From IMG/VR virus record IMGVR_UViG_3300033183_000058, positions 1-64,000 of that record: 64,000 nt of DNA. One strand, 5' to 3'. The notes beneath the pieces were generated by a model. That model searched no databases. It was given only the letters and a program-made list of their open reading frames with translations, and was not told where the DNA came from. The DNA comes from a virus. Positions 1 to 48,075 of this stretch are shown one piece after another (positions within the stretch are counted from its first letter, which is position 1; the number at the start of each line of letters is the position of its first letter). The position numbers were made by a program, and so were the translations under genes.

Positions 1-185
1 AACAAGATGTTCGTTTTCGTTGGTATGCTATAATGGAAATTACAAGAAAAATTGCTAACACAAGTTTAGAAGATTTACATAGACAGCATACAGAAATGAC
101 TAGTGTTATCCTACATAATCAGGCTTGGTTTAAAAGAAATAAGCAGGAAGAATTACTTAAGGCCGTTAGGAAAATAAGTGGCTAA
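1..185 (+). CDS. C-terminal fragment of an unknown protein
   Basis: An open frame enters from the left edge (first full codon at base 3) and ends at TAA 183-185, giving about 60 residues. The visible part is charged and probably helical, with a motif EDLHRQHTEM and a basic end (AVRKISG). It converges on the minus-strand SGNH gene and overlaps its 3' end by 33 bases, which is common for phage gene ends. I do not recognise a family. The start lies outside the window, so neither length nor function can be judged. Confidence 0.45.
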   Translation, partial: QDVRFRWYAIMEITRKIANTSLEDLHRQHTEMTSVILHNQAWFKRNKQEELLKAVRKISG

Positions 186-788
186 TAAATGATCTGCTAT
201 CAAAGCATGTTCAACATTGTTAGGATGTCTTTCCTCTTCGTCATACTTTCCAACGTTTTTAAAGTCCATAACATCTAGTTCAATAAATGTTATCTGTCTT
301 TGATCACATATCGCTTTTAGAGCTAGACTATGATTATCACGCTTACTATCTAATTCATCACAATCAATCACGTGACTAACAGCAAACTTAACTCCCTGCT
401 CAAGTTCGTTTAAAATATTAGCATCACTAGAAATATAGACTTTACCAACATCTTTTCTATGCTTTGGATCTTGATAAACATCTTTCAGTGCTGTGGCAAA
501 GGTAGGATGTATGATATATGTTCTATCAAAAGCACGCCACGTAAGCCTGGGAGAATGGGTCCAACAAACTAACAACACCGACACGTCATCGTGCTTTTTG
601 ATTTCCTCAACTGCTGTGTGGAAAATATAATCGTTACTAGCACCGCTAAGTGCCACATTGATACATTTAAGATTTAAGTTTTTTGCTAGTAATGCAGGAT
701 AACTTTGTTGAGCATTTTCTTCACTCATAAAAGGATGATCTAACTCAGCACCGTGTGTCACTGAACAACCTGCGGCTATGAGTTTCAT
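153..788 (-). CDS. SGNH/GDSL-type hydrolase-like protein
   Basis: A 211-aa protein with the layout of SGNH hydrolases. Block I is GCSVTHG at residues 7-13, with Ser9 as candidate nucleophile. A second block SGASND is at 48-53, where the oxyanion Gly/Asn is expected. A C-terminal HPN motif near 188-190 sits where the catalytic His usually lies. Family members remove acyl groups from sugars, lipids or peptidoglycan, and no signal peptide is seen, so the protein is probably cytoplasmic. Its ATG overlaps the stop of the upstream carbamoyltransferase gene by 4 bases (ATGA), indicating coupled translation. It is the last gene of the long accessory operon. The fold assignment is fairly secure but the substrate is unknown; trimming or transfer of acyl groups on the product made by the neighbouring genes is an inference. 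Confidence 0.7.
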   Translation of the reverse strand: MKLIAAGCSVTHGAELDHPFMSEENAQQSYPALLAKNLNLKCINVALSGASNDYIFHTAVEEIKKHDDVSVLLVCWTHSPRLTWRAFDRTYIIHPTFATALKDVYQDPKHRKDVGKVYISSDANILNELEQGVKFAVSHVIDCDELDSKRDNHSLALKAICDQRQITFIELDVMDFKNVGKYDEEERHPNNVEHALIADHLLATYFPNGLK

Positions 789-2278
789 GATACTACTTTA
801 ACTCCATATCGCTGTTGAAATCTATCAGCATCACTACGATCATTAACCATTGGCTCACCTTTGATATTGAGGCTAGTGTTTAGCAACATAGGACAGCCTG
901 TTAGCACAAACCATTTTTCTAATAGTTGTCTTATACCACTACCACAATCCTTACTCACAGTCTGCACACGACTAGTTCCATCCTGATGTATGATAGCAGG
1001 AAATTCGCTTGGCTTCTTACATGTAGCCACAGTCTGCATATAAGGGCTTGTTGGAAAGCCTTTAGGCATAGTAAAGTATTCGTTGACATATTCTTCAAGT
1101 ATAACAGGTGCAAATGGACGAAACTTTTGTCTACGTTTAATTTCGTTTACTCGATCTTTTATTTCAGGACCTCTTGGGTCTGCTAGTAATGATCTATTAC
1201 CTAATGCTCTAGGACCAAACTCTGCACGTCCTGATGCTACTCCTACTATCTTTCCTGCTAATAGTTCATCTAATAAAGCATTAACAGGATACTCGCCTTC
1301 AATGTTCATACCTAGATATGGATGCGACCATTCTACTTGTTTACCATAAGCAAGTGCCGCGGCACCTAAACTTGAACCTGCATCGCCTGGATTGGGCATG
1401 ATCCAGATATTGTCAAAGTAATCACCCAGGTGTTCATTTGCTGAACAGTTAAGAGCAACTCCGCCCATGTAGACTAAGTTATTGCTACGACCTATTTTTC
1501 TAGCATGAGCCATTATTTGATGTAGGCATTGTTCTACAGTGTATTGAGCTGAAGCCGCAATCTGAAACTCTGTCATTTCTGGTCTGTAGTCTTCACAGCC
1601 TATGTGTAGATTATCATAAAATTCTATTTCTTTTTTGTCTTTGACAAACTCAGCAAATACATTGTAGTCTGGTCTTGCATAGGCGGCCATGCCCATTAAA
1701 ATATATTCATCCTCATTTGGTTTTAATCCTGCACGTTGAGTCATTGCTGAATAAAATAATCCTACCGAGTGTGGATATTTTTGACTCCATAATTTTGTAT
1801 ACTGAGCACGACCTTTACGATCATAGTGTGCATGCCAAATTGATATAGTGTCAAACTCGCCTATAGCATCAATGACTACAACAGTGGCATCGTTATAAGG
1901 ACTTGTTTGAAAACCAGCGGCCGCATGTGATAAATGATGATGATAACTTGAAAAAGGTATACCTGTGCCTATTAGTCTTCTGGCACGTGGAGGGATTTCT
2001 CGATCAATGGCCTGCATAGTTGTTATACGGCGCCAATCAAATCCTATACCTGAGCGCCAATTACGTAACTGTTTTAGTAAAGGCTTTTCATAGTAAGCAA
2101 TATGAGTAATCTTATTAGTATAGTTGTAGGCATCATAGAATATGTCAGTGTTTAGGCTACGGTCATTCTTTTGTTTTGAATAACGTTCTGCATGTCCAGC
2201 AAACTTAATTGAACCGTCGTAGTCTACAACACTAATTGAAGCGTCGTGAAAGCCTGCCGATATTCCTAAGTAACTCAC
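785..2278 (-). CDS. NodU/CmcH-family O-carbamoyltransferase
   Basis: A 497-aa protein matching the carbamoyltransferase family that moves a carbamoyl group from carbamoyl phosphate to a hydroxyl of a sugar or antibiotic. The N-terminus LGISAGFHDAS is the family's first ASKHA-type motif. HHHLSHAAAG at 113-122 holds the metal-binding histidines, DAIGE follows at 137-141, and FGPRALGNRS plus FRPFAPVI in the region 350-395 mark the C-terminal YrdC-like carbamoyl-adenylate half. The end, LNTSLNIKGEP, is also typical. At 497 aa it is somewhat shorter than the usual 550-600, mainly at the C-terminus. It overlaps both neighbours by 4 bases. Family members decorate Nod factors, nebramycin-type antibiotics and surface sugars; here the neighbours argue for a phage-made or host surface glycan. 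Confidence 0.9.
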   Translation of the reverse strand: MSYLGISAGFHDASISVVDYDGSIKFAGHAERYSKQKNDRSLNTDIFYDAYNYTNKITHIAYYEKPLLKQLRNWRSGIGFDWRRITTMQAIDREIPPRARRLIGTGIPFSSYHHHLSHAAAGFQTSPYNDATVVVIDAIGEFDTISIWHAHYDRKGRAQYTKLWSQKYPHSVGLFYSAMTQRAGLKPNEDEYILMGMAAYARPDYNVFAEFVKDKKEIEFYDNLHIGCEDYRPEMTEFQIAASAQYTVEQCLHQIMAHARKIGRSNNLVYMGGVALNCSANEHLGDYFDNIWIMPNPGDAGSSLGAAALAYGKQVEWSHPYLGMNIEGEYPVNALLDELLAGKIVGVASGRAEFGPRALGNRSLLADPRGPEIKDRVNEIKRRQKFRPFAPVILEEYVNEYFTMPKGFPTSPYMQTVATCKKPSEFPAIIHQDGTSRVQTVSKDCGSGIRQLLEKWFVLTGCPMLLNTSLNIKGEPMVNDRSDADRFQQRYGVKVVS

Positions 2279-3111
2279 TGGTCTACTCTGATTCTTCCTC
2301 GTTCGGTATTTTCACCAGGCACTGCTAAAAACTTATCAATAAACCAGGCACTGACGTCAAGTGCTTCGCTATCTTTAACAGCAAAGTCATACAAGTTAGC
2401 ATGGGCATGATGATTATTATGTAGTCCTTCGCCTAGTGTCCATAAATGAACCCAACTGTTATTTTTACTACGGTCATCAGTGTCAAAGTTTCTATATCCA
2501 AGTGTATGCCCAATCCAATTAACAAATACATTTAATTCAACATGATATATCCAACTTGGCATAGCAACTAAAAATACTGTTATACGCCAGTCTATTAATA
2601 ATGTAACTGCTGTTAATGCCGCCCAAAGTTTATAATAATGATTATGAATAAATCTACATGTTGGATGAACTAGCAAATCTCTAGGAGTCATACCTCCTCT
2701 ATCCATAAACCATTTAAGATTATTAAATTCCCAAAGACCTAATGCTGTGTATAATTCTCCATCATTTACAGGACTATGCCAATCATTTGGCTTGTCTGTT
2801 ACCCTATGATGTTGTCTATGATTACGAGCGTATTGAATTGGAGAACCAACTCCTAACAAGAAACTAGTCCAGGCCATTAACTTTTCACCAAACGGTGTAG
2901 TATTAAATGCTCTATGACTAAAGTATCTGTGCATACCAATTGAATGACCAATCAGTTGAATTACCTTACTCCATACTAGACCTGCTAGTAGCCACCAAAG
3001 GCTTACACCATTAAACAACATGAATATTCCAAAGAAACTTGTTAAGTATATTAAACCTAAAAAATATCTGAATTTATTCGTTGTTATTTCTTTCTTTATC
3101 TTCGCTAACAT
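2275..3111 (-). CDS. membrane fatty-acid (acyl) desaturase
   Basis: A 278-aa membrane di-iron desaturase. All three histidine boxes are present: HRYFSH at 61-66, HRQHH at 98-102 and HNNHH at 231-235. Hydrophobic segments near 17-50 and about 165-190 fit the usual transmembrane hairpins. The pattern resembles delta-9 acyl-CoA or acyl-lipid desaturases, which place a double bond in C16/C18 chains using oxygen and an electron donor. The start overlaps the 3' end of the acyltransferase gene by 38 bases. In the operon it may change host membrane fluidity, or desaturate an acyl chain carried by the product of the cluster. Desaturases occur in other marine phages; the substrate here is not visible. 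Confidence 0.9.
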   Translation of the reverse strand: MLAKIKKEITTNKFRYFLGLIYLTSFFGIFMLFNGVSLWWLLAGLVWSKVIQLIGHSIGMHRYFSHRAFNTTPFGEKLMAWTSFLLGVGSPIQYARNHRQHHRVTDKPNDWHSPVNDGELYTALGLWEFNNLKWFMDRGGMTPRDLLVHPTCRFIHNHYYKLWAALTAVTLLIDWRITVFLVAMPSWIYHVELNVFVNWIGHTLGYRNFDTDDRSKNNSWVHLWTLGEGLHNNHHAHANLYDFAVKDSEALDVSAWFIDKFLAVPGENTERGRIRVDQ

Positions 3112-3850
3112 GATTGTCTTTGTCTAAATCTAGATCTACTCTTTTTAATATTCTTCCGTTAAACAGTGCCTGTGTTCCGGGTTCCATATCTTTAGTTACG
3201 TATGCGTGACCATGTATTTTACAATCATCACCTACTTCTAAATGTCCACCAAATCTTCCCGTAACGATGGTAGCATTACATCCTACAAATACATTTTTAC
3301 CGCATTTAACTCCGCCTGCTACAAATCCTTTAACGCTGACAAAACTGTTCTCTCCCATGACTGCATCATGCCCAAATGCCGCATAATCTAATGCAGTAAC
3401 ATGTTCACCAAATTGAACATCGTCTCGGACGTCAACCCATCTTCCTGTGTATGACCCTTGTCCAAACGTTGCACCTTTACTTATCTTTGTATCCGGATGA
3501 ATTAACGTATGACAGGGTAAGTTTAATTTTTTAATTAATGCTAGTCGTTCTAATCTTAAATGATAACCGCTTTCCTCAGGTTTGTCTTCAATCCTGCTAT
3601 TACCGTCCCAACTATTGCCTAAGAAGAACATGGCATTACCAAACTTATGAGGATTATCAAGTAACTCTTTTTCACTGCCAATGCACTCGACACCTTTGAT
3701 TATGTGTCCAGGCTCATACATTCTATCCAAAAATCCAATAATTTTGATATTGAGAAGTTCACAGTTCTCAGTGAGGAAATCCATGCCCCATCGTGATCCT
3801 ACGAAAACTATTGGTTCTTTCTTTTTAAATTTTTTGAATATTGAAAACAT
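3074..3850 (-). CDS. NeuD/PglD-like hexapeptide-repeat acyltransferase
   Basis: A 258-aa protein with two parts. Residues 1 to about 115 look like the Rossmann-like N-terminal domain of NeuD/PglD acetyltransferases (IVFVGSRWG near the start, then IIGFLD). The rest is a left-handed beta-helix with repeated small-hydrophobic-G/N hexads (for example VKCGKNVFVGCNATIV). An active-site-type His is likely in AAFGHDAVMG. Such enzymes acetylate amino or hydroxyl groups of bacterial surface sugars from acetyl-CoA, usually as trimers. The tail after about 235 is highly charged. Its 3' end overlaps the desaturase start. It fits a sugar-modifying role beside the carbamoyltransferase. Confidence 0.8.
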   Translation of the reverse strand: MFSIFKKFKKKEPIVFVGSRWGMDFLTENCELLNIKIIGFLDRMYEPGHIIKGVECIGSEKELLDNPHKFGNAMFFLGNSWDGNSRIEDKPEESGYHLRLERLALIKKLNLPCHTLIHPDTKISKGATFGQGSYTGRWVDVRDDVQFGEHVTALDYAAFGHDAVMGENSFVSVKGFVAGGVKCGKNVFVGCNATIVTGRFGGHLEVGDDCKIHGHAYVTKDMEPGTQALFNGRILKRVDLDLDKDNHVSEDKERNNNE

Positions 3851-3874
3851 ATTGTAATTATACCTTATTCTGTG

Positions 3875-3976
3875 CTACTTGTAAATAAAAGGATCACGCT
3901 TCTTTAGTTCTTTTAATTTCTTCCTATATTTAATTTCTATTTTAATTCTATTAATTAAATTCTTTAACCATTTCAT
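3875..3976 (-). CDS. 33-aa basic microprotein
   Basis: A small frame runs from ATG (3974-3976) to TAG (3875-3877). It encodes 33 residues rich in Lys, Arg and Ile, with the core YRKKLKELKKRDPFIYK at its C-terminus. The ATG overlaps the TGA of the upstream 352-aa gene as ATGA, the same coupling seen at other joints of this operon, which is the main reason for calling it. The profile is an amphipathic basic helix followed by a short aromatic tail. I believe similar tiny RDPFIY proteins occur in marine phages but cannot verify this here. Function unknown; an RNA-binding or host-interaction peptide is possible. Confidence 0.6.
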   Translation of the reverse strand: MKWLKNLINRIKIEIKYRKKLKELKKRDPFIYK

Positions 3977-5031
3977 AGTATTTCTATCCTTTCTATATCT
4001 AAATGTGAACTCATTTGTTTCCATATTTCAAACGAGTCTGTTGTTCCAAAACTTTTTTCTAATTCAACATAACCTAATTCAAGATATCCTAAACTTAATT
4101 TAGGATCGCGTGGATCTAATCCGTGCTTAATTAACCAATTTTCAAATTTTAATAATTCTCTATCATGCCATGGACAATCATTATTACGTGTTATACTTCT
4201 GCCCCACTCAATATCAAACTCTCCCGAATAATATTGTAGGTGTGTTATTGCTTCACAGGTTGCTTCGTCTAAGTCTGGTGCGTCTTCGTCTCTAAATACT
4301 TCTATTAGAGTTTTACCTATTTGCGTCCAGTGCATGTAAACATGAGCAAATTTACGATCATACCCATTGGTTATAAATCCTTGTCTATGATCATCTGTTA
4401 ATTCATATCTAGTAGCCTTAAAGAATGTTGTTATCTGACTAGGTCTTATCCATTCAGGTGCTACACGTTGCTTACGCTGACTTAATATTAAACTTTCTAA
4501 TTCATGACAGATATTATTAAGTTGTCTTATAGCGTTACGCACCTCTGGCGGCGATACTTGGCCATATGGACTGGGGGATTCAACTGTGCCTTCTAAACGT
4601 TCAAAATGATTGTGTAATTGATTCATAATTGAATGTTTAGTTTTTAATCCAATTGCTTCTTGGCTTGCTAGATGTGCTTCTACCGAATCACTTCTAACGC
4701 GAGTCTCTATAGGATAAGTGTCAGGAAATCTAACAGTGTTTGGATGGAACCATTCTTCAATAATATAATCTTCTAAACCATGCTGTGTATAATCATAACG
4801 ATTAATAATCTCTACACTTTTATTAAGTTCATCGCAAAGATATTCAACAGTGCGAGCCGAATCTGGCCATCCTAAAAAACAAAATGATTTTTCCAATGTA
4901 AGATTTTGATCTAATATTTCTTTAAGAGCGTTAACCCAATCTTGTGCTAGTTTAGTGTCGTTAGGTCTAATGTAATAAGCGATCTTATCATCATTATTAA
5001 ATGGATTTTGTAATGTAACTTTAATTTCCAA
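3973..5031 (-). CDS. unknown 352-aa protein of the radical SAM operon
   Basis: I do not recognise a family. The 352-aa protein has no signal peptide, membrane segment or cysteine cluster. It contains many His, Trp and Tyr residues and short conserved-looking stretches such as LGWPDSART, MNQLHNHFERLEG, EWGRSITRNND and LGYLELGYVELEKSFG. The central part (about 120-190) is probably helical. It overlaps the radical SAM gene upstream by 11 bases and is coupled to the 33-aa gene downstream. Being cotranscribed with five radical SAM genes, it could be a partner or the protein they act on, but nothing in the sequence proves either. Confidence 0.75.
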   Translation of the reverse strand: MEIKVTLQNPFNNDDKIAYYIRPNDTKLAQDWVNALKEILDQNLTLEKSFCFLGWPDSARTVEYLCDELNKSVEIINRYDYTQHGLEDYIIEEWFHPNTVRFPDTYPIETRVRSDSVEAHLASQEAIGLKTKHSIMNQLHNHFERLEGTVESPSPYGQVSPPEVRNAIRQLNNICHELESLILSQRKQRVAPEWIRPSQITTFFKATRYELTDDHRQGFITNGYDRKFAHVYMHWTQIGKTLIEVFRDEDAPDLDEATCEAITHLQYYSGEFDIEWGRSITRNNDCPWHDRELLKFENWLIKHGLDPRDPKLSLGYLELGYVELEKSFGTTDSFEIWKQMSSHLDIERIEIL

Positions 5032-6328
5032 TGTCGTCCCACCATTCCAATGCGTCTGTTCTATTACTTAATATATCTCGCATGGTATACGTATCTTTTC
5101 TAATTAACTCTAATTGTAGCATACGATTCTTACCGTCCACAAGAGCTTGTTGCCATGTATCTGAAAATTGTTCCTCAAATGTAGGTCTTGTTTTTAGTTG
5201 CTCTAATACATCACGCATGGCTCCTTCGCTGTGAGGTATTAGTTCATCAAGCCATGGATGTAATATAGATCGTGGGAGTGCAAGTGGACTCATAATGATG
5301 TCTGGGGTAAACCCAAACACCACTTTAGCCAGAATGTCTATTTCTTTTTCTTTCGCAAGTTTTTGGATATTTTCAACTTCGAATAATCCAGGGAGTGTGA
5401 GCGTGAAGTCCAATCGAATCTGTCTTCTATGAACTGCGTTCTCAAGTCCTTGATCGAGATTCTCAAGCCAAGAATTGTAGTTGAGACCCGTCCTAATATA
5501 TTCTCCAATCGCTCCTGTTCCGTCGATTGACGCACATATCTGCCAATCGCGTAAGTTGCTAAGGATATCAGTATAAAGATTACAGCCTCTATAATCCACA
5601 CGGCTGAGGTTGGTATTGTATCGAGCATAAACATTTGGTCCATCTCCTAATTCAATGATGCGTTGCATGTATCGCCAGTGTTGCTCATACATCAACGGTT
5701 CTCCGCCTACCCAGTAAATCTCTTCGACTCTATGGTCTTCAACTGCGTCAGCGAACTCCTGCTCTATCTGCGTGTCCTGAAACTTAGATATTTCATCACG
5801 CACTGCAGGCACCATCCAATTATTTTTGGGATTTTTAAAATCTATCATCCCATGCTTACGTTGTTCTGATTCCCAAGCACTGGATAACATATCCCCACAC
5901 ATACGGCATTTGAAATTACATAAATTGGTAAACCTATAATCCCAACTAACAGGTTTCATTGTAGTATGACCTGTGTCGTCCGTTGTGTCCCAAATCTTAC
6001 TATAGTATTTACTACTGAACAGGTGATCAAAATATGTGCGGTAAACGTCAGTGTTTAATAACTTACTATTACACACATCACATTCAGGCAAGGGTTCTCC
6101 CTTCATCATACGTTGACGCACTGATTTCATATGGTCACTGTTCCAGTGTTCTTCTAAGGTAATAGGAATATACTTGCCTGTGCCTGATTTAGTATCTATA
6201 TACTGTTCAAAGTTCTGTGCAGGTTCTCTTGATGCACAGCACATTCGTCTTTCTGTTTGTGGGCTTAGATAGGTATGTGTCCAAGGAGCCATACACAAAG
6301 TAGCAGGTCTGTTCTTAGGTTCTTTCAT
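5021..6328 (-). CDS. radical SAM protein with N-terminal twitch domain (1)
   Basis: A 435-aa radical SAM enzyme. The S-adenosylmethionine-cleaving 4Fe-4S cluster motif CxxxCxxC is at Cys137, 141 and 144 (LCNFKCRMCG), and the SAM-binding GGEP is in WVGGEPL. Before the barrel is an auxiliary-cluster module: Cys12 in CMAPWTHTYLSP, the pair Cys30-Cys31, and CDVC at 83-86. This resembles a SPASM/twitch domain moved to the N-terminus, the architecture known as twitch-domain-containing radical SAM. Such enzymes do difficult radical chemistry on peptides or sugars. It is the last of five related genes in a row and overlaps its neighbours by 11 and 14 bases. Substrate unknown. Confidence 0.88.
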   Translation of the reverse strand: MKEPKNRPATLCMAPWTHTYLSPQTERRMCCASREPAQNFEQYIDTKSGTGKYIPITLEEHWNSDHMKSVRQRMMKGEPLPECDVCNSKLLNTDVYRTYFDHLFSSKYYSKIWDTTDDTGHTTMKPVSWDYRFTNLCNFKCRMCGDMLSSAWESEQRKHGMIDFKNPKNNWMVPAVRDEISKFQDTQIEQEFADAVEDHRVEEIYWVGGEPLMYEQHWRYMQRIIELGDGPNVYARYNTNLSRVDYRGCNLYTDILSNLRDWQICASIDGTGAIGEYIRTGLNYNSWLENLDQGLENAVHRRQIRLDFTLTLPGLFEVENIQKLAKEKEIDILAKVVFGFTPDIIMSPLALPRSILHPWLDELIPHSEGAMRDVLEQLKTRPTFEEQFSDTWQQALVDGKNRMLQLELIRKDTYTMRDILSNRTDALEWWDDIGN

Positions 6329-7520
6329 AGCCTATTGCCTCTGCTAGTTCAGGATGGTGGTCCCATAATGACTCGTTGCGTAGTCGATCAAATCTGCGTA
6401 TGTTGTCTAGTAATTCTTTTGACTCAACGCCCTTGCCTTGATCCATAAAGTTTATTATTCTATCAAATTCTTTCTTATGTTTGTTGTGATTGGGAATCAA
6501 ACTTAATTTTGCGATGGCACGTATCTTTGCCCTTGGATGCAGATTCGCTATGTTGTTATACCATATCTCATGAAGCATGTTCCAATAGACAAAATCAAAC
6601 TCTTGCTTGTCGATCCACCAACTTAGTTCTTCCAAATACATCACATTAAACACATTTACTGTAGAACAGCACTGTAGAGTTATGTTGCCAAACTCTTGTT
6701 TAAGTTTTTTAAAGCGTTGTATGTTAGCATTTACTTCTTGCCACTCTGCATTCTTACGTTGATATTCAAATCTTTCTCGAACATCATCTATGCTAAATGC
6801 TATTTCAACTAATTTAAATTCCTTCCATACCGCTAAGTTCTTTTCTGGATACTGTGTGCCGTTAGTGTTGTAATGTATTTCAATATTCTTAGCAACACCT
6901 CGATCTACTAGTGTTCGTAGGAAGTCAAAATGCTCCTGAATCATAAAAGGTTCGCCACCAGTAAACTCTAGGTAGCGTATGTTGTCTACATTGTCAGACA
7001 TCTCTTGCCAAAAACCTTCTGCTTCTCTAGGCCAGCGACCTTGTTCAATCATTTTATATGGAAAACTAGACTTCTGTTTTTCTTTAGGCAACTCTTGAAG
7101 TTCTTCTGTGGCGTAACTACTAGAACTCCAACTACCACATATACGACATTTTAAATTGCAGATGTTACCTAGTTTAAAATCTATAAACGCCAACGGCTTA
7201 TGATCTTGAGTCCATTCAGTGCTATCAATCATTGACTCTAAACGCTCTAATGTGTATTCACGTTTTGACTTACCACCTGAATCTTCTACTGCCCAGCACT
7301 TCTTACAAGTGTCTGGTTTCTCTCCGTTTAGAAACTGACTACGCAGATCACGCATAGACTCTTGTGCTTGTTCTACAGTGTCTACACCTACACGTAATTT
7401 CTCACCTTGATCATTGACTAATTCATCCTCTGCCAGACAACATGGTCGCATGGTGCCAATGGGACTTGTTTCAACACTAACCCAAGGTAGTATGCAAAAT
7501 GTTTTATTTGGTAAGTTCAT
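6315..7520 (-). CDS. radical SAM protein with N-terminal twitch domain (2)
   Basis: A 401-aa paralogue of the neighbouring radical SAM genes. The N-terminal auxiliary-cluster module has Cys9 in CILPWVSVETSP, the pair Cys27-Cys28 and CKKC at 72-75. The radical SAM motif is Cys121, 125 and 128 (ICNLKCRICG), and FTGGEPF supplies the SAM-binding glycines. It is the shortest of the five and has no long extension, so it is close to the minimal form of the family. It overlaps the upstream gene by 17 bases and the downstream one by 14. Chemistry is expected to be SAM-dependent radical modification; the target is unknown. Confidence 0.88.
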   Translation of the reverse strand: MNLPNKTFCILPWVSVETSPIGTMRPCCLAEDELVNDQGEKLRVGVDTVEQAQESMRDLRSQFLNGEKPDTCKKCWAVEDSGGKSKREYTLERLESMIDSTEWTQDHKPLAFIDFKLGNICNLKCRICGSWSSSSYATEELQELPKEKQKSSFPYKMIEQGRWPREAEGFWQEMSDNVDNIRYLEFTGGEPFMIQEHFDFLRTLVDRGVAKNIEIHYNTNGTQYPEKNLAVWKEFKLVEIAFSIDDVRERFEYQRKNAEWQEVNANIQRFKKLKQEFGNITLQCCSTVNVFNVMYLEELSWWIDKQEFDFVYWNMLHEIWYNNIANLHPRAKIRAIAKLSLIPNHNKHKKEFDRIINFMDQGKGVESKELLDNIRRFDRLRNESLWDHHPELAEAIGYERT

Positions 7521-9168
7521 TTAACTCAGGTATTGCTTCTAATACATTTTCATTTCTAATACGATCTAGTTCTATTGTTTTTTGCCAAAATCTTTCTCTG
7601 CCTTTGCCATTTAATGGATCATTAAGTAAGTTTAATGCACTTTGAAATCCTTGCGTTGCTCTTCCAAACGTGTCAAGAGGTTTAAGCCAAGATAAATGTT
7701 CTTGGTATTTTTCTGATATTTTCTTTCTATAATCTTCGTCAGCAATACTGACCTGTAACCATTTTGGATCAACTAAAAGATTAATATTTAAATCTTGTGG
7801 TTTTATTAGTCCTTTACTTACCCATTCTTTATGAAAATCGGGTAAGTGTAAAACATTTAAAATGCTTAGTGTAGGACTAATATAAAAGTCAACACGAGGA
7901 CATTGTTCCATCATTATACGTCTATTACGTTCCACTTCTTCCCAATCTGTGCCTTTACGAATATACTCTGCTCTTGGACCCATGGCATCTAAACTAGCAC
8001 CAACAGCAACTGATTTAAATTTACGCCAATAGTCAAATACATAACGATCTTTTAGTTTTGTTTTAGTAAAGTTTGTGTTATAAACCAATGTAACATCAAA
8101 TCTTTTACGACGTTCTAGTTCTTCAAGTATATGATAATGTTCATCCATTATCAATGGTTCACCACCAGCAAAATATATTTGCTCTACATAGTCTATATGT
8201 TCCATTAGTTGTTCTAACATATCGGTTTCGTGTCGGCCTGCCCAAAACAGAGCTTTATTCTTTTTACCCCATTCAGGACCTGCAAGTTTAATTTGATCTT
8301 GATACCAAGAACTTGAAAATATGTGTCCGCATGAACGACAACTTAGATTACATAGGTTACTAAAACGTATATCCCAATATGTCATTTCAAACTGATCAAA
8401 TGTTCCATCAGATAAAGTTTTATCTACTCTTTTAACATGATGTCCTTGATGTTTGTTAGCACTTTGTCTTGGACTAAAAAATCCTGCACGTTCTTCTTCA
8501 TAGCATTTTTTACATCCTGGGCTTTGAATATCATTGAGCATGTTTGTTCTCAACGTCTTCATTTTAGATGAGTTCCATATTTCTTTAAGAGTTTTGTTTC
8601 TAACAGAGCCAAAATTTACACTATAGTTCCACAAACAACAAGGTTGAGCTTGACCATTGGGACTAGAATTTAAATGGATCCAGGGATACATACAAAATGT
8701 TTTTGATTCAGTTAGTAAGTATTTTTCTCTTTCAGTTAAGTCAAACATATTAATGTTTGTAGGAACACTCGAACCATATATATACTCGTCTGTTATTTTT
8801 GCAGTGGTTTCATTTTTTATATAGTTTCCTTCTAATACTTTAAAGTCTAGTTTATTTTCTTTATCAGTATTAACAATATTGAGCTTTGTTATTTCTTTTT
8901 CAATATCTTTGTTTGTTGTTTGCACTAATATAAAACAAGGAGTAATGTCAAGGTTATTAACAATTCTTAATAAGATTGATAACTTAATGCCCACATCTGA
9001 ATCTTTTTGATATAAATCAGAATCTCCAAAGTTGATAACTATTCTGTCATTATTATCATATGCTTCTTTTTTATTTTTTTTAAGATTAGGAAACAAATAA
9101 TTTTTTAATTCGTTTAGATCTTCAATCGAATTTATATATAATGTATCAATGATATTATAATTTGCCAT
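7504..9168 (-). CDS. radical SAM protein with twitch domain and long N-terminal extension (3)
   Basis: A 554-aa radical SAM protein. Cys159 starts the auxiliary module (CMYPWIHLNSSP), followed by Cys177-Cys178 and CKKC at 219-222. The SAM cluster motif is Cys273, 277 and 280 (LCNLSCRSCG), then AGGEPL. The first 150 residues are an extra Lys/Asn/Ile-rich alpha/beta-looking region (VINFGDSDLYQ, LLRIVNNL) absent from the other four copies. It looks like a separate small domain, possibly a substrate-binding or leader-recognition element, though I see no clear RRE. Base composition of this extension is more AT-rich than the rest. It overlaps both neighbours (14 and 17 bases). Confidence 0.87.
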   Translation of the reverse strand: MANYNIIDTLYINSIEDLNELKNYLFPNLKKNKKEAYDNNDRIVINFGDSDLYQKDSDVGIKLSILLRIVNNLDITPCFILVQTTNKDIEKEITKLNIVNTDKENKLDFKVLEGNYIKNETTAKITDEYIYGSSVPTNINMFDLTEREKYLLTESKTFCMYPWIHLNSSPNGQAQPCCLWNYSVNFGSVRNKTLKEIWNSSKMKTLRTNMLNDIQSPGCKKCYEEERAGFFSPRQSANKHQGHHVKRVDKTLSDGTFDQFEMTYWDIRFSNLCNLSCRSCGHIFSSSWYQDQIKLAGPEWGKKNKALFWAGRHETDMLEQLMEHIDYVEQIYFAGGEPLIMDEHYHILEELERRKRFDVTLVYNTNFTKTKLKDRYVFDYWRKFKSVAVGASLDAMGPRAEYIRKGTDWEEVERNRRIMMEQCPRVDFYISPTLSILNVLHLPDFHKEWVSKGLIKPQDLNINLLVDPKWLQVSIADEDYRKKISEKYQEHLSWLKPLDTFGRATQGFQSALNLLNDPLNGKGRERFWQKTIELDRIRNENVLEAIPELNELTK

Positions 9169-10510
9169 ACCATTCCTTTAGTTCAGGAAAAGTTTCTGTA
9201 AAGTTTTTATTCCTGCGTTGGTCGTATTGTTCGTAAAAGTTTTTAAAATCACTCAATAATTTTTGTTCTTCAAAAGTGTCCGAGTGCGGTTTGTCTACAA
9301 GTTGTAGGTAATCAATTAATCTATCTATATGATTGTGTTCAAACTCATGTAGCCATTCACCGTAGTTTGTTTTAAATATACCTAGTCTGTTTGCTTGAGC
9401 TATTCTAAACTCTTTGTTTAACACTAACGGTGATTGGAAACTAGGAAAGCGTAAGATGTTTAAGGTAAAGTTAACACTATCTTTGCCATACTGTTCTTTC
9501 CATTTCATTATCTGTCTGAGGAATCTATCTAGTGTAGTCAGGCACAGTGCATTAATGGTGCACATGACATGCAGTCCTCTGAGCCTGCGACTGTCTAGCA
9601 AATACTCTACATTATCTTGCCATACTTGATAGTCTAAACCATCACGAATATATTCTGCTTTAGTTCCACATGCTTCGTTACTAGTATATAGATCTAGTTC
9701 AACTTCTTTGGCTCCTTCTATCAGTCTATCTATCTTTTCTCGATCAAACGATAAGTTTGAATTAATAGCAAGACGTGTTTGACTCTGTCCTCGATTCCTT
9801 TGAAACCATTCTAACAGTTGCCATGTATAACCTGACATTAATGGTTCGCCACCTGTTATTCTAAGTTCTTTGAGTGTCTTGTGTAGATCGGATTCCCACC
9901 ACTTGAAGAAGGCCTCAATGTAAGGATTATGCTGACCATAAGTATACAACTGACTACTGTCGTGAGTATGAGTAAAGTGGTTGCGGCCATCACTAACCAA
10001 GTTGGTATAACTACCTTTGAACTTAATGTCCCTAACCCAACTACTGCTAAAAGCGGGGTTGCAATAACTACAAGCCAACTGGCAAGTCCTATCAAAAGCA
10101 ATTTCCAAAGTTCTAAGTTCAACATCTTGTGTCCATTTAGTATGGTAAGCATCGTCTAACTCCTTGTCCTCATATATAACTGTTTTATAAACTCTATCCG
10201 ATATAGCATCCTTGCCCATATCTTCAATCTTCCAGCAGTATTCGCACCCTTTAGGTCTCTCACCTGCCTGCATCATAGCACGTTCTTTTTTCTTTTGTTC
10301 TGTATTGTGTAATGCTTTTGGATTGCGTTCTACTTCTGTAGTAGTAATCTTGTGTGGTAAAGGATGATGACAACTGGTAGTCATGCCACTGCCTAACCAT
10401 ATGGTAGCGTTATACCATTTGGCCGCACAGAAACTATCACTCTTAATATCAATGACTCTGCGTTTATATTCTAAGTCTGTTTCGTTATGCTTTTTTGGCA
10501 TATTGTTCAC
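9155..10510 (-). CDS. radical SAM protein with variant N-terminal cluster (4)
   Basis: A 451-aa member of the same series but of a different subtype. The radical SAM motif is Cys143, 147 and 150 (TCQLACSYCN), followed by ITGGEPL. The N-terminal module has Cys28 (CAAKWYNATIWL), then a single Cys47 in SCHHPLPHK in place of the Cys-Cys pair, and CEYC at 89-92. His48 and His49 next to Cys47 could take part in metal binding. A motif NPKALHNT is shared with the next gene, so these two form a sister pair. The start could be Met1 or Met4. It overlaps the upstream gene by 26 bases and the downstream one by 14. Confidence 0.87.
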   Translation of the reverse strand: MNNMPKKHNETDLEYKRRVIDIKSDSFCAAKWYNATIWLGSGMTTSCHHPLPHKITTTEVERNPKALHNTEQKKKERAMMQAGERPKGCEYCWKIEDMGKDAISDRVYKTVIYEDKELDDAYHTKWTQDVELRTLEIAFDRTCQLACSYCNPAFSSSWVRDIKFKGSYTNLVSDGRNHFTHTHDSSQLYTYGQHNPYIEAFFKWWESDLHKTLKELRITGGEPLMSGYTWQLLEWFQRNRGQSQTRLAINSNLSFDREKIDRLIEGAKEVELDLYTSNEACGTKAEYIRDGLDYQVWQDNVEYLLDSRRLRGLHVMCTINALCLTTLDRFLRQIMKWKEQYGKDSVNFTLNILRFPSFQSPLVLNKEFRIAQANRLGIFKTNYGEWLHEFEHNHIDRLIDYLQLVDKPHSDTFEEQKLLSDFKNFYEQYDQRRNKNFTETFPELKEWYGKL

Positions 10511-11915
10511 ACTCCTTCCACCATGCAGACATTTCTGGAAATGTCTTTAAAAAGTCAGTGCCTCTCCTTCGATCGTGTTCACTAAAGTATCTATAGAAAT
10601 CTGCTTTTTGTTTATTTTTATAGTTATCATCTAACTGTTGGCCTGATCTCATCCAAGTGATATCTCTGTCAAGTCTTTTTATTTCGTAGTCTTTAAACCC
10701 TTTAAATCTAGTTTCTTCTGTTTCATGCCACTTAACCATCCAGGCCCATAGTCTTTCTAGTTTATCAACATATGGTTCAGGCAGTAAGTCCATACGCATC
10801 CACTCAGGTGTTCTCAATATAGGTGTGTCAAACCACACACGTTGATATGTGTTTGAATGCACTTGTCTAAGTCCGTGTATACCTGCAAACAAGTTTTCAA
10901 CTGATGTAACATTTAAGTTATTCATAGTTATGATAAATGTTATGCTTGAACGTTCTGGCACTTCAAACAAGAACTGATTAACACGTTCCCATAACAGTTT
11001 AAAGTCTAGTCCATCTCTGATATATTCTGCTTGTTCGCCAAACCCGTCCACACTCACATACTGCATAAAGTGTTCTACATTATCATCTGCACATATCTTT
11101 TTAACATAACCTAAATACTTTTGCCATAGTTTTTCATCTACTGAAAAGTTTGAAGTTACATTTAAATGTAAGTCTGGTTTAGGGTTTTCTAAAACATAAT
11201 CAAATACCTTGAAGGTATTCTTGTCCATTAAAGGTTCTCCGCCTGTCATGCGGAAGTGTTTAAGTTCAGGGTAAAGATCAGGCCACCAATCCCAAAACGC
11301 AGTTAGGTATGGATTGTGTTCTCGGAAAGGTATAGGCTTTCTCCTACCCTGAAAATAGTTAGGGTCATTGTGTGGCGTTGATGTTGGCCACGCACCCAAT
11401 TCGTTTGACTCTTTCTCCCACGCTGTAGAGTATTGTGGTGAGCAGTAAGAGCATTTTAAATTACAGTTGTGATTAAAGTTAACTTCTACATAACTTGGTA
11501 TAACATCTTGATCCCAAGGTGCGTTAACTATTTCATTAAATGATTCTGCGGCCCAAGGTTCACCTGAGCGATAGTGCCTGTCGCTGAGTTTACCATTGTC
11601 TTCCATAGTCCAACAGTAACTACATTCTTCTGGGCGTTGCCCTTCTAACATCTGCTTACGTGCAGATTTCTTTTGTGCTGTATTATGTAAGGCACTAGGA
11701 TGAAACTCTAAAGGTTTAACATCTATTTCATGTAAGGGTGGATGGTAGCATGAGTTAGTCATGCCCGTGGTGAGATGTAGGCTAACCTGTTTCCATTTAG
11801 CCAAGCACATACTAGGACTTACTGTGTCTAACTGTTCTTTAGCAACTTCTGCGTCACTTAAGAACTTAGACTTAAAGTCCTTGTTTACTTCATCACCTTT
11901 ATTTTGAATAGACAT
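10485..11915 (-). CDS. radical SAM protein with variant N-terminal cluster (5)
   Basis: A 476-aa radical SAM protein and the closest relative of the gene downstream. The catalytic motif is Cys151, 155 and 158 (NCNLKCSYCS), followed by MTGGEPL. N-terminal cluster residues are Cys37 (CLAKWKQVSL), Cys56 in SCYHPPLHE, and CSYC at 98-101; again one Cys plus His replaces the Cys-Cys pair seen in copies 1-3. The shared PSALHNTAQKK stretch ties it to copy 4. It is the first translated of the five and overlaps the glycosyltransferase-like gene upstream by 17 bases. Duplication and divergence inside the operon is the simplest origin. Confidence 0.87.
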   Translation of the reverse strand: MSIQNKGDEVNKDFKSKFLSDAEVAKEQLDTVSPSMCLAKWKQVSLHLTTGMTNSCYHPPLHEIDVKPLEFHPSALHNTAQKKSARKQMLEGQRPEECSYCWTMEDNGKLSDRHYRSGEPWAAESFNEIVNAPWDQDVIPSYVEVNFNHNCNLKCSYCSPQYSTAWEKESNELGAWPTSTPHNDPNYFQGRRKPIPFREHNPYLTAFWDWWPDLYPELKHFRMTGGEPLMDKNTFKVFDYVLENPKPDLHLNVTSNFSVDEKLWQKYLGYVKKICADDNVEHFMQYVSVDGFGEQAEYIRDGLDFKLLWERVNQFLFEVPERSSITFIITMNNLNVTSVENLFAGIHGLRQVHSNTYQRVWFDTPILRTPEWMRMDLLPEPYVDKLERLWAWMVKWHETEETRFKGFKDYEIKRLDRDITWMRSGQQLDDNYKNKQKADFYRYFSEHDRRRGTDFLKTFPEMSAWWKECEQYAKKA

Positions 11916-12810
11916 CTACTTCTCTTACCATAGGCCCTTGGTTACGCCAATTTGATCTATAGTGTCTTTTGAAAAACTTACTTTGTTCTTGATCTAGTTC
12001 TACCACATCCAGATCTAATCTACTGAGTTCTTTAGCATTCTCTCTTGCTATCTGATCTGGATCTTGTGATTGCATTTCCGTCCATAACTTTTCCAAGTTA
12101 TCAAACCATTGAACTTCTGTATGATCCCACTCACTTAACATAGTCATTAGTGTGCCTTGTCTGGCTCCTGCTATTGCCCATATACCATTTTCAACATCAC
12201 GGCCTACTGTGTGCCATATGTTGAGATTATCTAAGTTACGTTTATGAGCTCTATCTTTAAATTTATTTATTGTTGGTTTATGTCCTCGATCTAAACACAT
12301 CTTAACACCTTCGCGGAATCCTGCACGCCATGCTTGGAAAGGTGTAGCATTAGGGTATGTAACTGAGTAGCAATCGTGCATGGCCCAGTATAAAGGATCA
12401 AAACAAAACTCTACATTAGTATCATCACTACCGTCACTGTTCTCATGTGTTTTCATATTATAGACAAAGTCTTTGGTCCATGAACTAAGTCCACCGTTGC
12501 CATACATTAATCCATTTATATGATTACGAGCTCTCCAACGGAACACTGCCTTTTCATAATCCTCATCTTTGAGTTCTAGTGTAAGATCAAAGAAGTCCGG
12601 GCTAGGCATATTGTCACCATCTATTAGGATAAATCTATCTGTATTACTAGCATCAGCCGCGGCTTTGTGTGCGGCGTCCGATCCTTTAACACCGTCTACA
12701 CGAGTTGCCCATGGAATCATATTTTTAATTTGAACCCAAAACTCTTCCTTTTGTGGTTCATCATAACTTAAGTATATGCAGTCTAAATCTGCTACATCAA
12801 TCTCAGTCAT
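11899..12810 (-). CDS. glycosyltransferase-like protein (GT-A type, DGDN motif)
   Basis: A 303-aa cytoplasmic protein. Near residues 60-66 there is ILIDGDNMP, a DxD-like motif after a hydrophobic strand, as in GT-A glycosyltransferases that bind nucleotide-sugar through a metal ion. Other strong stretches are IYLSYDEP at the start, NGLMYGNGGLSSW, VEFCFDPLYW and AWRAGFREGVK. I recall similar proteins in marine phages annotated as glycosyltransferases, but the match is by motif and fold pattern only. It overlaps the downstream radical SAM gene by 17 bases and the upstream small gene by 8. It could attach a sugar to the molecule handled by the radical SAM enzymes. Confidence 0.65.
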   Translation of the reverse strand: MTEIDVADLDCIYLSYDEPQKEEFWVQIKNMIPWATRVDGVKGSDAAHKAAADASNTDRFILIDGDNMPSPDFFDLTLELKDEDYEKAVFRWRARNHINGLMYGNGGLSSWTKDFVYNMKTHENSDGSDDTNVEFCFDPLYWAMHDCYSVTYPNATPFQAWRAGFREGVKMCLDRGHKPTINKFKDRAHKRNLDNLNIWHTVGRDVENGIWAIAGARQGTLMTMLSEWDHTEVQWFDNLEKLWTEMQSQDPDQIARENAKELSRLDLDVVELDQEQSKFFKRHYRSNWRNQGPMVREVDVYSK

Positions 12811-13129
12811 AGTATTTTACTTTCCATTTCTGCCCTTGTCCTATTATAGTAATGTCATCAACTAGTGTTTCTGTCCCCTCATCACTAGGAACAAGTTTAC
12901 GATACTGCGTAATCTTATTTGGATTTACCAGTTTACCGTTTTCAACTTTAACATCAACTCTACCTTCAAAAAACTCTTGCTTAGTGACAACAATATAACT
13001 ACCTTCTAGCTCTTGTCTTGAATATTCCTTAGGAGTTCCGTCCTCATTATAGTATAAACGATATTCATCTGATTGCTCTTGCCTTTTAACAGGCTGTCTA
13101 TTTTTAATTACTTCCCAAAAGGCTGTCAT
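12803..13129 (-). CDS. small unknown protein (108 aa)
   Basis: A 108-aa acidic/basic mixed protein of unknown family, predicted to be mainly beta (YRLYYNEDGTPKEYS, YIVVTKQEFFEG, GQKWKVKYYD). The start WEVIKNRQPVKRQ looks like an exposed tail. No cysteine cluster, membrane segment or catalytic motif is seen. It overlaps the two glycosyltransferase-like genes on either side by 8 and 26 bases, so it is clearly translated as part of the operon. A small accessory or structural partner for its neighbours is possible. Confidence 0.7.
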   Translation of the reverse strand: MTAFWEVIKNRQPVKRQEQSDEYRLYYNEDGTPKEYSRQELEGSYIVVTKQEFFEGRVDVKVENGKLVNPNKITQYRKLVPSDEGTETLVDDITIIGQGQKWKVKYYD

Positions 13130-13895
13130 AATGTTTCTCTAACACATCAGCAAAAGATTTGACTTGATAGTGTGTAGGTATTTGTTGTTGTATAGTCTGT
13201 ATACGAAGTCCGCAATCTGTTAACTCCCACACAAGTTCTTTTGTCCAGTCTTCACCATGACAAAAATTTATCTTGCCTTTCATGTGTGCAAACTGTGGAT
13301 ATGTGCTAGGTAGTAGGAAGTTTTCTCTACCTAGTAACACTATAGCTAATGCGTATACTGTATCAGTGTCTGGTTCAGATTGATCCCAATTACGCAATTT
13401 AACTTGATCCCAATTATCAAATAGTTCTCTACATGTTACAAAGAACTTAGCGGCTAATTCACTTCGTCTCCAATATGTTATTGCGTTATACACATCAGGT
13501 AGTTTGTTGTCATCTAAATGACGTCTATAGGTTCTATCTGTAGTCTTGTGCCCATAAAAGTTTCTAGTGCCTTGTGCTATAAACACATCACGTTTTTCGA
13601 CCATAGCCCACCAATGCTCTATTGAACCATTAAGAATCATATCTGCTTCTAGTTTAATAGTCTGACGAAAAGGTGTTGCTTCAAATATCTGCCAGTCATT
13701 TTTTAATCCGCCTTGGTCACCATAAGGTAAAGGTATTTCATAATCAAATATAGGATCTTGACAATCACCTACAACTGCTACTTTGGCTTTGGGCATAAAG
13801 TATTTTATTGACTTTGCAAGAGCTCTAGCACACGGGTGATATGTGTCGCCTTGTGCTACAATTAAATAACCTTGTTCTGCTTTAACTGCCTGCAC
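13104..13895 (-). CDS. glycosyltransferase-like protein (GT8-like)
   Basis: A 263-aa protein with the N-terminal pattern of GT-A transferases: a first strand (GYLIVAQGDTYHPCARALAK), a second (VAVVGD), then IKLEADMILNG near 80-90 with the acidic EAD in the DxD position after a hydrophobic strand. NWDQSEPDTD and ALAIVLLGRENF further on resemble the acceptor half of GT8-like enzymes. No signal peptide. It overlaps the downstream small gene by 26 bases and the related upstream gene by 14. It is similar in layout to the next gene, and the two may be diverged paralogues. The sugar donor and acceptor cannot be told. Confidence 0.6.
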   Translation of the reverse strand: MQAVKAEQGYLIVAQGDTYHPCARALAKSIKYFMPKAKVAVVGDCQDPIFDYEIPLPYGDQGGLKNDWQIFEATPFRQTIKLEADMILNGSIEHWWAMVEKRDVFIAQGTRNFYGHKTTDRTYRRHLDDNKLPDVYNAITYWRRSELAAKFFVTCRELFDNWDQVKLRNWDQSEPDTDTVYALAIVLLGRENFLLPSTYPQFAHMKGKINFCHGEDWTKELVWELTDCGLRIQTIQQQIPTHYQVKSFADVLEKHYDSLLGSN

Positions 13896-14652
13896 AGATC
13901 GCCTCCATTGATTGTTTATTCATTACGTGAATATCTAAACCTTTAATATTTTGTATTACCGCTTTTTGTTGTAGGTATGTTATGTAAGATAAAACAAATG
14001 TATTTTCCTTCTCTCCAGATCTAACATCAACATCAGTGGTTGCTGTAACTAGTGGCCAAGGAATCGAATATTTGCTAGATTCTACATGTCCACCTAATAG
14101 GCCAAGTGCTATTGAAAATGCCCAATCATTACGAAAAGTCTTGCTGTCAAACTTATATAAAAATCCATAGTGTTTCCAATCTCGTTTGATCATCTCAACT
14201 GTGTCAAATACTTCTTTAGCAAAATTAGATCTATTAAAATACATCACTGTGGCCCAACGACTGGGAAACTTATGCTCACCAAATCTATCTAGTGCTATGA
14301 ACTCTGCTCTCCTTGTTACATCTGTTGCTGTCTGATGAATCATAAAATCTTTGTCTGCGTCAAACAATAAATTTAATATTTCACTGTTAACAATGTAGTC
14401 AACATCTAGCACTATTGTTTCATCATAAGGACTATGATCCCAAGCACGATTGCGACTAGCATTATACCATAACTCTCCACCTTGGGTAGCATTGAATACT
14501 CTGGTGCCACCCAGTTCAGCATCATCTTGGTTTGATATAATTGTTGTGGGTAGACCTAAGTATCTTTCAATACGTTCAGCAGACCATTTGGCCATAGAAA
14601 GATAATCCGTGGTGCCATTGTTAAATGCGTAGAGTAATACTCCTCGACTCAT
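13882..14652 (-). CDS. glycosyltransferase-like protein (GT-A type, DVDY motif)
   Basis: A 256-aa protein beginning with a Rossmann-like strand (GVLLYAFNN) followed by TTIISNQDD, then ETIVLDVDYIVN near 79-90, a clear DxD-type motif. Later parts include AFSIALGLLGG, comparable to ALAIVLLGRE in the adjacent 263-aa protein. This supports two related GT-A proteins side by side. It overlaps the gene upstream by 4 bases and the one downstream by 14. Similar proteins appear in marine T4-like phages, where they may glycosylate host or virion components; this is inference. Confidence 0.62.
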   Translation of the reverse strand: MSRGVLLYAFNNGTTDYLSMAKWSAERIERYLGLPTTIISNQDDAELGGTRVFNATQGGELWYNASRNRAWDHSPYDETIVLDVDYIVNSEILNLLFDADKDFMIHQTATDVTRRAEFIALDRFGEHKFPSRWATVMYFNRSNFAKEVFDTVEMIKRDWKHYGFLYKFDSKTFRNDWAFSIALGLLGGHVESSKYSIPWPLVTATTDVDVRSGEKENTFVLSYITYLQQKAVIQNIKGLDIHVMNKQSMEAICAGS

Positions 14653-14948
14653 CGTTGTCTCGATTGTTCTGCTAGTTCAACACTCCAAGCATTTAACTGT
14701 TCTTGATGTCTCTGCTTGGCCTCTTTGAGTAAGGATGGTCTATCAACTTCTGTGGGATTATTAAATTCATCAAGTATGACCACAGTGTCTGTGTCAAATG
14801 ATGATAATAGGACTATTAGATCTGCACCTGCACGGAACATGCCGCCTTGGTGTGCGAATAGTAGTTTTGCTTCGTATTTTTCACGCAAGACCTGTTTAGC
14901 GGCCTCGTGATCAAAACGAGCTTTGATCTTTTTGCTGATTGTATCCAT
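14649..14948 (-). CDS. small conserved phage protein (99 aa)
   Basis: A 99-aa protein, probably helix-strand-helix: an N-terminal basic helix (ISKKIKARFDHEAAKQVL), a central TVVILDEFNNPTEV strand pair and a C-terminal amphipathic helix rich in Gln and Glu. I have an impression of relatives in marine T4-like phages but no function. It is the first gene after the terminator at 14983-15006 and the first of the long overlapping operon. A TATAAT box lies only 5 bases upstream of its ATG, so either the transcript is nearly leaderless here or the motif is fortuitous. Confidence that it is a real gene is good. Confidence 0.75.
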   Translation of the reverse strand: MDTISKKIKARFDHEAAKQVLREKYEAKLLFAHQGGMFRAGADLIVLLSSFDTDTVVILDEFNNPTEVDRPSLLKEAKQRHQEQLNAWSVELAEQSRQR

Positions 14949-14962: not shown

Positions 14963-14982
14963 CATACTTATCAGACAAAAAG

Positions 14983-15006
14983 AAAGGCACCTAAAAAAGT
15001 GCCTTT
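14983..15006 (-). terminator. factor-independent terminator after the fibre gene
   Basis: On the minus strand an 8-bp stem AAAGGCAC / GTGCCTTT with an 8-base loop is followed by CTTTTTG. It lies 20 bases after the stop of the 335-aa fibre-like gene and separates the structural operon from the accessory operon. Confidence 0.85.
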
Positions 15007-15025
15007 CAATTCTACCAAAAACTTA

Positions 15026-47548: not shown

Positions 47549-48075
47549 TATTAGAACTACACTTTGAATCAGACAATCATTTTGGACATCCAACACTAGA
47601 GATTGCTGTTGACGATCAACAGTTGTATCAGGGTGGGATTCGTAATCGATTCCAGTTTAATATAGAACTAAGCGATGGCCAACATCAACTTAAGATCACA
47701 CACTATGGTAAAAATAAAAACGAAACCACAGTTACTAATGATAAACATTTTAAGTTAACAAAAGTATTAATGGACTCGGTTGATTTAGATCTTAAAGAAC
47801 ATTGTAGATTATCGCACCAAGGGATATTTAGACCTGACTATCATCCTGACTTTGTTAAAGATCAAACATTGTTGGGTGTAATACCTCCTGAGACCATACA
47901 GCCTAATCATTACTTTGGGCATAACGGAGTTTGGATATTAGATTTTAAAACTCCTGCACTGCTTTGGATTATCGAATCACAGAATCCATCAGGTATGCAC
48001 TTAGAGGATACTATTTTTAAAAGTGGGCAAGACACTATTAATGATATAAAAGAATTTTTTGGAATAGATGACTAA
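47512..48075 (+). CDS. beta-rich unknown protein between radical SAM genes
   Basis: A 187-aa protein I cannot assign. Residues 10-100 look like a beta-sandwich (LELHFESDNHFGHP, LEIAVDDQQLYQGG, FNIELSDGQHQLKITHYGK), the pattern of a small carbohydrate-binding module. The second half has PDYHPDFVKD and HNGVWILDFKTPALLW. No cysteine cluster. It overlaps the B12-type radical SAM gene by 37 bases and the next radical SAM gene by 8. It may bind the sugar or carrier acted on by the neighbours; this is inference. Confidence 0.75.
   Translation: MGTVSFRINNAVILELHFESDNHFGHPTLEIAVDDQQLYQGGIRNRFQFNIELSDGQHQLKITHYGKNKNETTVTNDKHFKLTKVLMDSVDLDLKEHCRLSHQGIFRPDYHPDFVKDQTLLGVIPPETIQPNHYFGHNGVWILDFKTPALLWIIESQNPSGMHLEDTIFKSGQDTINDIKEFFGIDD

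Follow-up and report, generated by a model that had tools for sequence, protein, structure and literature searches.

Five consecutive radical SAM genes in a phage operon

We analysed positions 1 to 64,000 (the window) of the IMG/VR virus record IMGVR_UViG_3300033183_000058, a contig of 73,853 bases. Five consecutive genes for radical S-adenosylmethionine (SAM) enzymes, here named R1 to R5, occupy positions 5021-11915 on the minus strand (Table 1). A sequence-only reading of the window had described them as overlapping genes of one operon, each with a CxxxCxxC motif, a GGEP(L/F) motif and a cysteine module placed before the barrel, and all of this was borne out. The five genes are intact and open throughout, with overlaps between neighbours of 26, 14, 17 and 14 nucleotides in the order of transcription. 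Each protein has one CxxxCxxC, one GGEP(L/F) and one N-terminal four-cysteine module. In an alignment of 34 sequences drawn from the five families, the auxiliary cysteines C37, C56, C98 and C101, the SAM-cluster cysteines C151, C155 and C158, and GGEP are invariant. CxxxCxxC is kept in 417 of 417 related genes, in nearly all of which the first two auxiliary cysteines are 18 residues apart.

As the sequence-only reading had proposed, we searched each protein with NF033640 (N_Twi_rSAM), a hidden Markov model with a curated cut-off of 170 bits, here applied to the whole-protein score. All five exceeded it over the full model (286-396 bits), so that we are dealing with one family and not with unrelated ones. 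None of the genes is frameshifted. The general radical SAM model PF04055 scored above its cut-off in R3, R4 and R5, just under it in R2 (29.4 against 29.5) and under it in R1 (20.1). The best PDB sequence matches of the radical SAM proteins were viperin and MoaA rather than BtrN. In the classical SPASM/twitch layout the module is a C-terminal extension, whereas in R1-R5 it is N-terminal and no comparable cysteine module follows the barrel. Because the four N-terminal cysteines are invariant, and because the Pfam SPASM model itself matches the N-termini of R3 (residues 159-223, 6.5e-12) and R5 (residues 12-87), the permuted module, a predicted auxiliary-cluster site, is a property of the sequence and not an error of reading. 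R3 has a further domain of about 150 amino acids (aa) at its N-terminus, which is also found in a minority of relatives.

Table 1. Features of the radical SAM array, its partner genes and the second radical SAM locus (positions in the window)
Feature	Position	Strand	Remarks
R1, N-terminal twitch radical SAM enzyme, 476 aa	10485-11915	-	NF033640 323 bits; clade support 99
R2, N-terminal twitch radical SAM enzyme, 451 aa, sister of R1	9155-10510	-	NF033640 294 bits; clade support 98
R3, N-terminal twitch radical SAM enzyme, 554 aa	7504-9168	-	NF033640 396 bits, match beginning at residue 155
R4, N-terminal twitch radical SAM enzyme, 401 aa	6315-7520	-	NF033640 337 bits
R5, N-terminal twitch radical SAM enzyme, 435 aa	5021-6328	-	NF033640 286 bits; clade support 100
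D6, conserved partner, last gene of overlapping run	3973-5031	-	no Pfam, NCBIfam or PHROG family
U303, GT-A-fold glycosyltransferase-like, anchor gene before R1	11899-12810	-	in 80/80 R1 loci listed; predicted fold
U108, small conserved protein	12803-13129	-	same place in most relatives
GTa, glycosyltransferase-like	13104-13895	-	conserved place; GT8-like by eye, GT8 unconfirmed by Pfam
GTb, paralogue of GTa	13882-14652	-	GTa and GTb one family by hhalign, 99.1%
U99, small conserved protein, first gene after hairpin	14649-14948	-	median 4-nucleotide overlap with GTb in relatives
Intrinsic terminator-like hairpin, 11 pairs and T run	14982-15007	-	between tail-fibre genes and module
Sigma-70-like promoter, 11/12 matches	3857-3885	-	in 122-base gap before NeuD-like gene; consensus match only
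NeuD-like hexapeptide sugar acetyltransferase	3074-3850	-	TIGR03570 73.8 bits, under cut-off 160.8; Hexapep Pfam
Fatty-acid desaturase-like protein	2275-3111	-	PF00487 45 bits
NodU/Nol-type O-carbamoyltransferase	785-2278	-	PF16861 1.2e-51, PF02543 2.8e-36
SGNH/GDSL-like hydrolase or acyltransferase	153-788	-	weak GDSL match; relatives have similar genes among their inserts
Second radical SAM locus: radical SAM, B12-type radical SAM, small protein, radical SAM, short-chain dehydrogenase/reductase (SDR)	45093-49761	+	

Conservation of the array in relatives

A scan of IMG/VR with R1 returned at least 129 relatives, of which 80 were kept. Among the matches listed, the 80 R1 orthologues have a median identity of 69%, and R2-R5 follow in the same order in all 45 R1-selected loci with at least 8 kb beyond R1. 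R5 has a median identity of 71% in 48 relatives, and the 48 loci with both R1 and R5 fall into 41 groups at 95% identity. Because R1 had itself chosen these loci, we repeated the analysis from D6, the last gene of the overlapping run. In the D6-selected loci with at least 8.5 kb upstream (n=66 among the matches listed), R2, R3 and R5 were each present in 66 of 66, R4 in 63 and R1 in 62, with some R1 genes falling outside the fetched stretch. The two sets share some contigs, so their independence lies in the way they were obtained and does not extend to membership. Each scan is biased towards sequences close to its query, and the figures describe this lineage rather than all phages.

The array was also found from the capsid gene. 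Among capsid-selected contigs, full arrays lie in contigs of 345 kb and 374 kb, and one of 318 kb has a reduced set of three. In another (L168/L169, G041:30001-66000) the same tail and glycosyltransferase anchor genes are followed by a row of about 14 radical SAM genes. Marine contigs binned into bacterial metagenome-assembled genomes carry a divergent version in which R5 and R4 are swapped. In several loci (L013, L018, L028-L030 and others, near position 9476), R1 has an N-terminal extension of about 170 aa that is homologous to a stand-alone insert protein, N3.

Among cultured phages we found no close counterpart. R1 gave no tblastn match in 50,697 phage records, U303 had none in the cultured-phage collection, and R3 found only weak matches of about 28% identity. 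One cultured phage, Vibrio phage K566, carries four NF033640-type genes close to a lipopolysaccharide (LPS) galactosyltransferase-like gene and PagP. We rejected it as a cultured member of the lineage, given that R1 and U303 are unmatched in the phage collection, and regard it as a distant analogue only.

Origin of the five genes

The sequence-only reading had seen in the row an expansion by duplication and had called for a phylogeny with homologues. A tree of 165 sequences gave R1-R5 one clade apiece (support 98-100), paired R1 with R2 as sisters and placed bacterial members among R3, R5 and R4; the tree is a quick one with long branches, and its deep order is unsure. The median identity between orthologues is 54-71%, as against mutual identities of 21-30% between the paralogues R1-R5, with R1-R2 at 30%. 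Tree and identity values together led us to reject recent tandem duplication within the phage. By these comparisons, R1-R5 are ancient orthologous lines whose order has been kept across the lineage, and R1/R2 is the only pair that looks like a phage-side duplication. Real expansion does exist, in the relative with about 14 radical SAM genes.

Genomic setting and partner genes

The genes surrounding the array are those of a contractile-tailed phage, with a capsid protein 65-70% identical to those of jumbo phages of the RaK2/GAP32/CBB/PA5oct group, whose genomes range from 280 to 490 kb; the phage is large, uncultured and aquatic. In transcription order, the tail-fibre genes are followed by the terminator-like hairpin, U99, GTb, GTa, U108, U303, R1-R5 and D6. 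After D6 there is a 122-base gap with a promoter-like site, and then come the NeuD-like acetyltransferase, desaturase, carbamoyltransferase and SGNH genes, until the cluster breaks off with the contig itself at window position 1. The module lies directly downstream of tail-fibre genes in nearly all relatives. Upstream of the tail-fibre genes of the window, one open reading frame of 4467 aa spans 18136-31539.

The promoter and terminator in the window are consensus matches only. A scan of 68 relatives found terminator-like hairpins at the U99-side position in 21, and we rejected a conserved terminator before the module. A T4-type late promoter, TATAAATA, was rejected as well, showing no enrichment.

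U303, the anchor gene before R1, matches no Pfam, NCBIfam or PHROG family and no glycosyltransferase sequence family. Its structural model (predicted local distance difference test, pLDDT, 88) has as top Foldseek matches GT-A glycosyltransferases and related nucleoside diphosphate-sugar enzymes, the first being the PBCV-1 capsid glycosyltransferase 2p6w (E 5.5e-4). D6 has at least 574 relatives in IMG/VR. In most relatives of the module it overlaps the end of the array. Its AlphaFold2 model (pLDDT 88) found no PDB match in a fold search, only phage proteins without assigned function, and sequence profiles of D6, U303 and a protein designated N0 found nothing in the PDB. D6 may be a scaffold or an acceptor.

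Six relatives continue past the point where this contig ends, in much the same order: carbamoyltransferase, glycosyltransferase-like proteins, a protein designated N12, a DegT sugar aminotransferase and a sugar epimerase. In D6-selected loci (n=60, among the matches listed), N12 is present in 60 and the carbamoyltransferase in 45. The C-terminal domain of N12 belongs to the U303 family (hhalign 99.7%). N12 (example L223:6666-9662) varied from 517 to 1341 aa among the 40 compared, and the longest carries what by eye are repeated aromatic-rich units. The sequence-only reading had left the product as a glycan, lipid or peptide. Glycan-type partners support the first of these, and the range is narrowed by the DegT aminotransferase (54 of the same 60 loci), the epimerase (50 of 60) and the predicted GT-A fold of U303.

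Variable inserts and a second radical SAM locus

Between the conserved genes, inserts vary from phage to phage and include further radical SAM genes, an epimerase, a cytidylyltransferase, an adenosine monophosphate (AMP) ligase and a nucleosidase. In seven loci a methylthioadenosine/S-adenosylhomocysteine nucleosidase-type gene lies within the array (example L043:18724-19296), of the kind expected to remove 5'-deoxyadenosine, as it may do here. In one relative a tryptophan-halogenase-type gene and an AMP ligase (L220:5222-6469) adjoin the carbamoyltransferase downstream of the array.

The window also contains a second radical SAM locus, absent from the sequence-only reading, whose three radical SAM genes span 45093-49180. 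Their homologues occur in relatives as inserts inside the five-gene array, one of them, in L066, as a radical SAM-SDR fusion (54/60% identity). A variable glycan coat would require just this combination of a constant core and changing decorations. Beyond the second locus lie a SegE-type GIY-YIG homing endonuclease gene (49798-50238) and, outside the module, a sulfotransferase-like gene (50658-51362, PF03567).

Proposed function

With moderate confidence, we propose that the five genes are the conserved core of a phage-encoded glycan-tailoring locus, the glycan being most likely attached to a virion protein. We see the row of five as probable core equipment for making an unusual sugar coat, and not as the outcome of random duplication. 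An amino sugar would be built by the epimerase and DegT aminotransferase, and sugars would be joined by U303 and the GTa/GTb transferases. In each enzyme the SAM cluster would generate a 5'-deoxyadenosyl radical that abstracts a hydrogen from a single site on its substrate (an amino sugar or a short glycan), and the permuted four-cysteine auxiliary [4Fe-4S] cluster would take the electron back. Because the electron would be taken back in this way, each step is expected to dehydrogenate the substrate, or to bring about a related epimerisation or dehydration. The glycan would be finished by decorations that differ between phages, carbamoyl, acetyl and sulfo groups among them, and would be put on a tail fibre or capsid protein in the cytoplasm, so that the coat would differ between phage lines.

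The closest enzymatic model is BtrN of the butirosin pathway, a twitch enzyme with a SAM cluster and one four-cysteine auxiliary [4Fe-4S] cluster that carries out a two-electron oxidation of an aminocyclitol (PMC9012708) and so serves as a model for two-electron oxidation of an amino sugar. It differs in that its twitch is C-terminal to the barrel and its pathway makes an antibiotic. By analogy, the same number of ligands suggests oxidation chemistry, although reaction types cannot be read from sequence.

The acceptor and alternative roles

We looked for families that would reveal the acceptor. Sugar-1-phosphate transferase, flippase and polymerase/ligase families (PF02397, PF01943, PF04932) had no match in any of 13 large relatives, with 9-13 of 14 positive controls matched. 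Because families for lipid-linked initiation, flipping and ligation are missing from these relatives, cytoplasmic transfer is favoured over a surface polysaccharide. NTP_transferase was found in one large relative, and activated sugars are therefore probably drawn partly from the host. A virion protein is the most likely acceptor, the host surface via host machinery comes second and DNA is unlikely; this ranking is an argument from absence over partly incomplete contigs.

The locus might instead modify a host surface polysaccharide (O-chain) during infection, blocking superinfection or stopping progeny from sticking to debris. Such a role has been put forward for the host-recognition clusters of pelagimyophages, which contain GT8 transferases and radical SAM cassettes (PMC7029224). 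It would also suit a Bacteriovoracaceae contig with NF033640 genes among a DegT aminotransferase and an ABC-2 exporter, as well as the K566 genes beside LPS functions. We nevertheless consider it unlikely, though the strongest of the alternatives, as the large relatives lack an initiating transferase, a Wzx-type flippase and a Wzy/ligase family, and a host-specific surface change would less readily account for a core kept so strictly in marine and freshwater phages alike.

Somewhat less probable is that the radical SAM enzymes act directly on a protein or peptide, such as a tail protein or D6, in the manner of SPASM maturases, with the sugar genes forming a separate neighbouring pathway. The overlapping array leaves no room for a precursor-peptide reading frame, the sugar genes accompany it almost everywhere, and genes of glycan type are found as inserts within the radical SAM series itself. 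These observations weigh more with us than the precedents on the other side: many characterised SPASM relatives act on peptides, there is weak NCBIfam similarity to peptide maturases, and the array adjoins tail genes and is overlapped at its end by D6.

Phage pathways of DNA hypermodification are known or suspected to employ radical SAM enzymes as well as acyl-, carbamoyl- and glycosyltransferases, and the gene types of the locus fit this. That it hypermodifies phage DNA bases is nonetheless very improbable: the thymidylate-synthase/hydroxymethylase family (PF00303) was found in only 3 of 16 relatives with controls working, ThyX being found instead; Tet/JBP (PF12851) was found in 0 of 16, though no positive control matched; and the locus lies in the tail region. 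An ordinary, recently duplicated accessory metabolic cassette with no fixed joint role would echo the varying radical SAM cassettes of related marine phages (PMC7029224) and the row of about 14 genes in one relative, but is hardly credible given five separate ancient clades, retention of both cluster-ligand sets, a fixed order, and all five genes in 45/45 loci and each in 62-66 of 66 D6-found loci (among the matches listed).

Several points weigh against the proposal that R1-R5 tailor a virion glycan. D6 is without any assigned function, and the TM-scores of the U303 fold match are low (0.31-0.48 for the best family). GTa, GTb, N0 and an amidinotransferase-like protein were called by eye or from weak matches and go unrecognised by Pfam. 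The virion acceptor is argued from position and missing export genes, and the phage could borrow host export machinery. Five oxidising enzymes are many for one sugar, and some may act on protein. We also know of no NF033640 enzyme with a proven substrate.

Comparison with known systems

R1-R5 share with NF033640 the N-terminal four-cysteine module followed by the barrel. The bacterial members in our comparison occur alone or in small groups, with no counterpart to the ordered series of five orthologous lines. The host recognition cluster of pelagimyophages (PMC7029224), which are T4-like marine phages, likewise brings tail fibres, GT8 transferases and radical SAM cassettes together, but that region is hypervariable, whereas the jumbo lineage described here keeps a five-gene core and its frame constant. 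The marine T4-like virus TARA_ERS488813_N000010 (PMC5332604) has 12 radical SAM genes, reported as Fe-S related auxiliary genes in a passage that describes neither an ordered module nor a link to glycans. Mycobacteriophages place phage-encoded glycans on capsid and tail tube protein (Freeman 2023, cited in PMC12619734); radical SAM tailoring enzymes go unmentioned in the account given there. That citing paper, on moraphages, concerns a different lineage and likewise does not mention radical SAM genes.

The sequence-only reading had called the pathway undescribed. This holds in that no close cultured-phage counterpart exists in the collection and that, in the open-access literature (subscription journals and preprints not being covered), we found no description of a conserved five-gene radical SAM module. 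It needs tempering, for earlier papers had already noted tail fibres with radical SAM cassettes next to them (PMC7029224) and the presence of 12 radical SAM genes in one T4-like virus (PMC5332604).

Implications

Sugar coats are important to phages in binding receptors and in evading host defences. We suggest, tentatively, that a widespread lineage of aquatic jumbo phages may use a core five-step radical SAM pathway of permuted-twitch enzymes to place a new oxidised amino-sugar glycan on its own virions. If the lineage needs five radical enzymes for its coat, this would be chemistry used by no characterised glycan pathway known to us, and the five orthologous lines offer a ready set of enzymes for testing. 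If true, it would provide the first functional setting for NF033640, a family spread over bacteria and phages.

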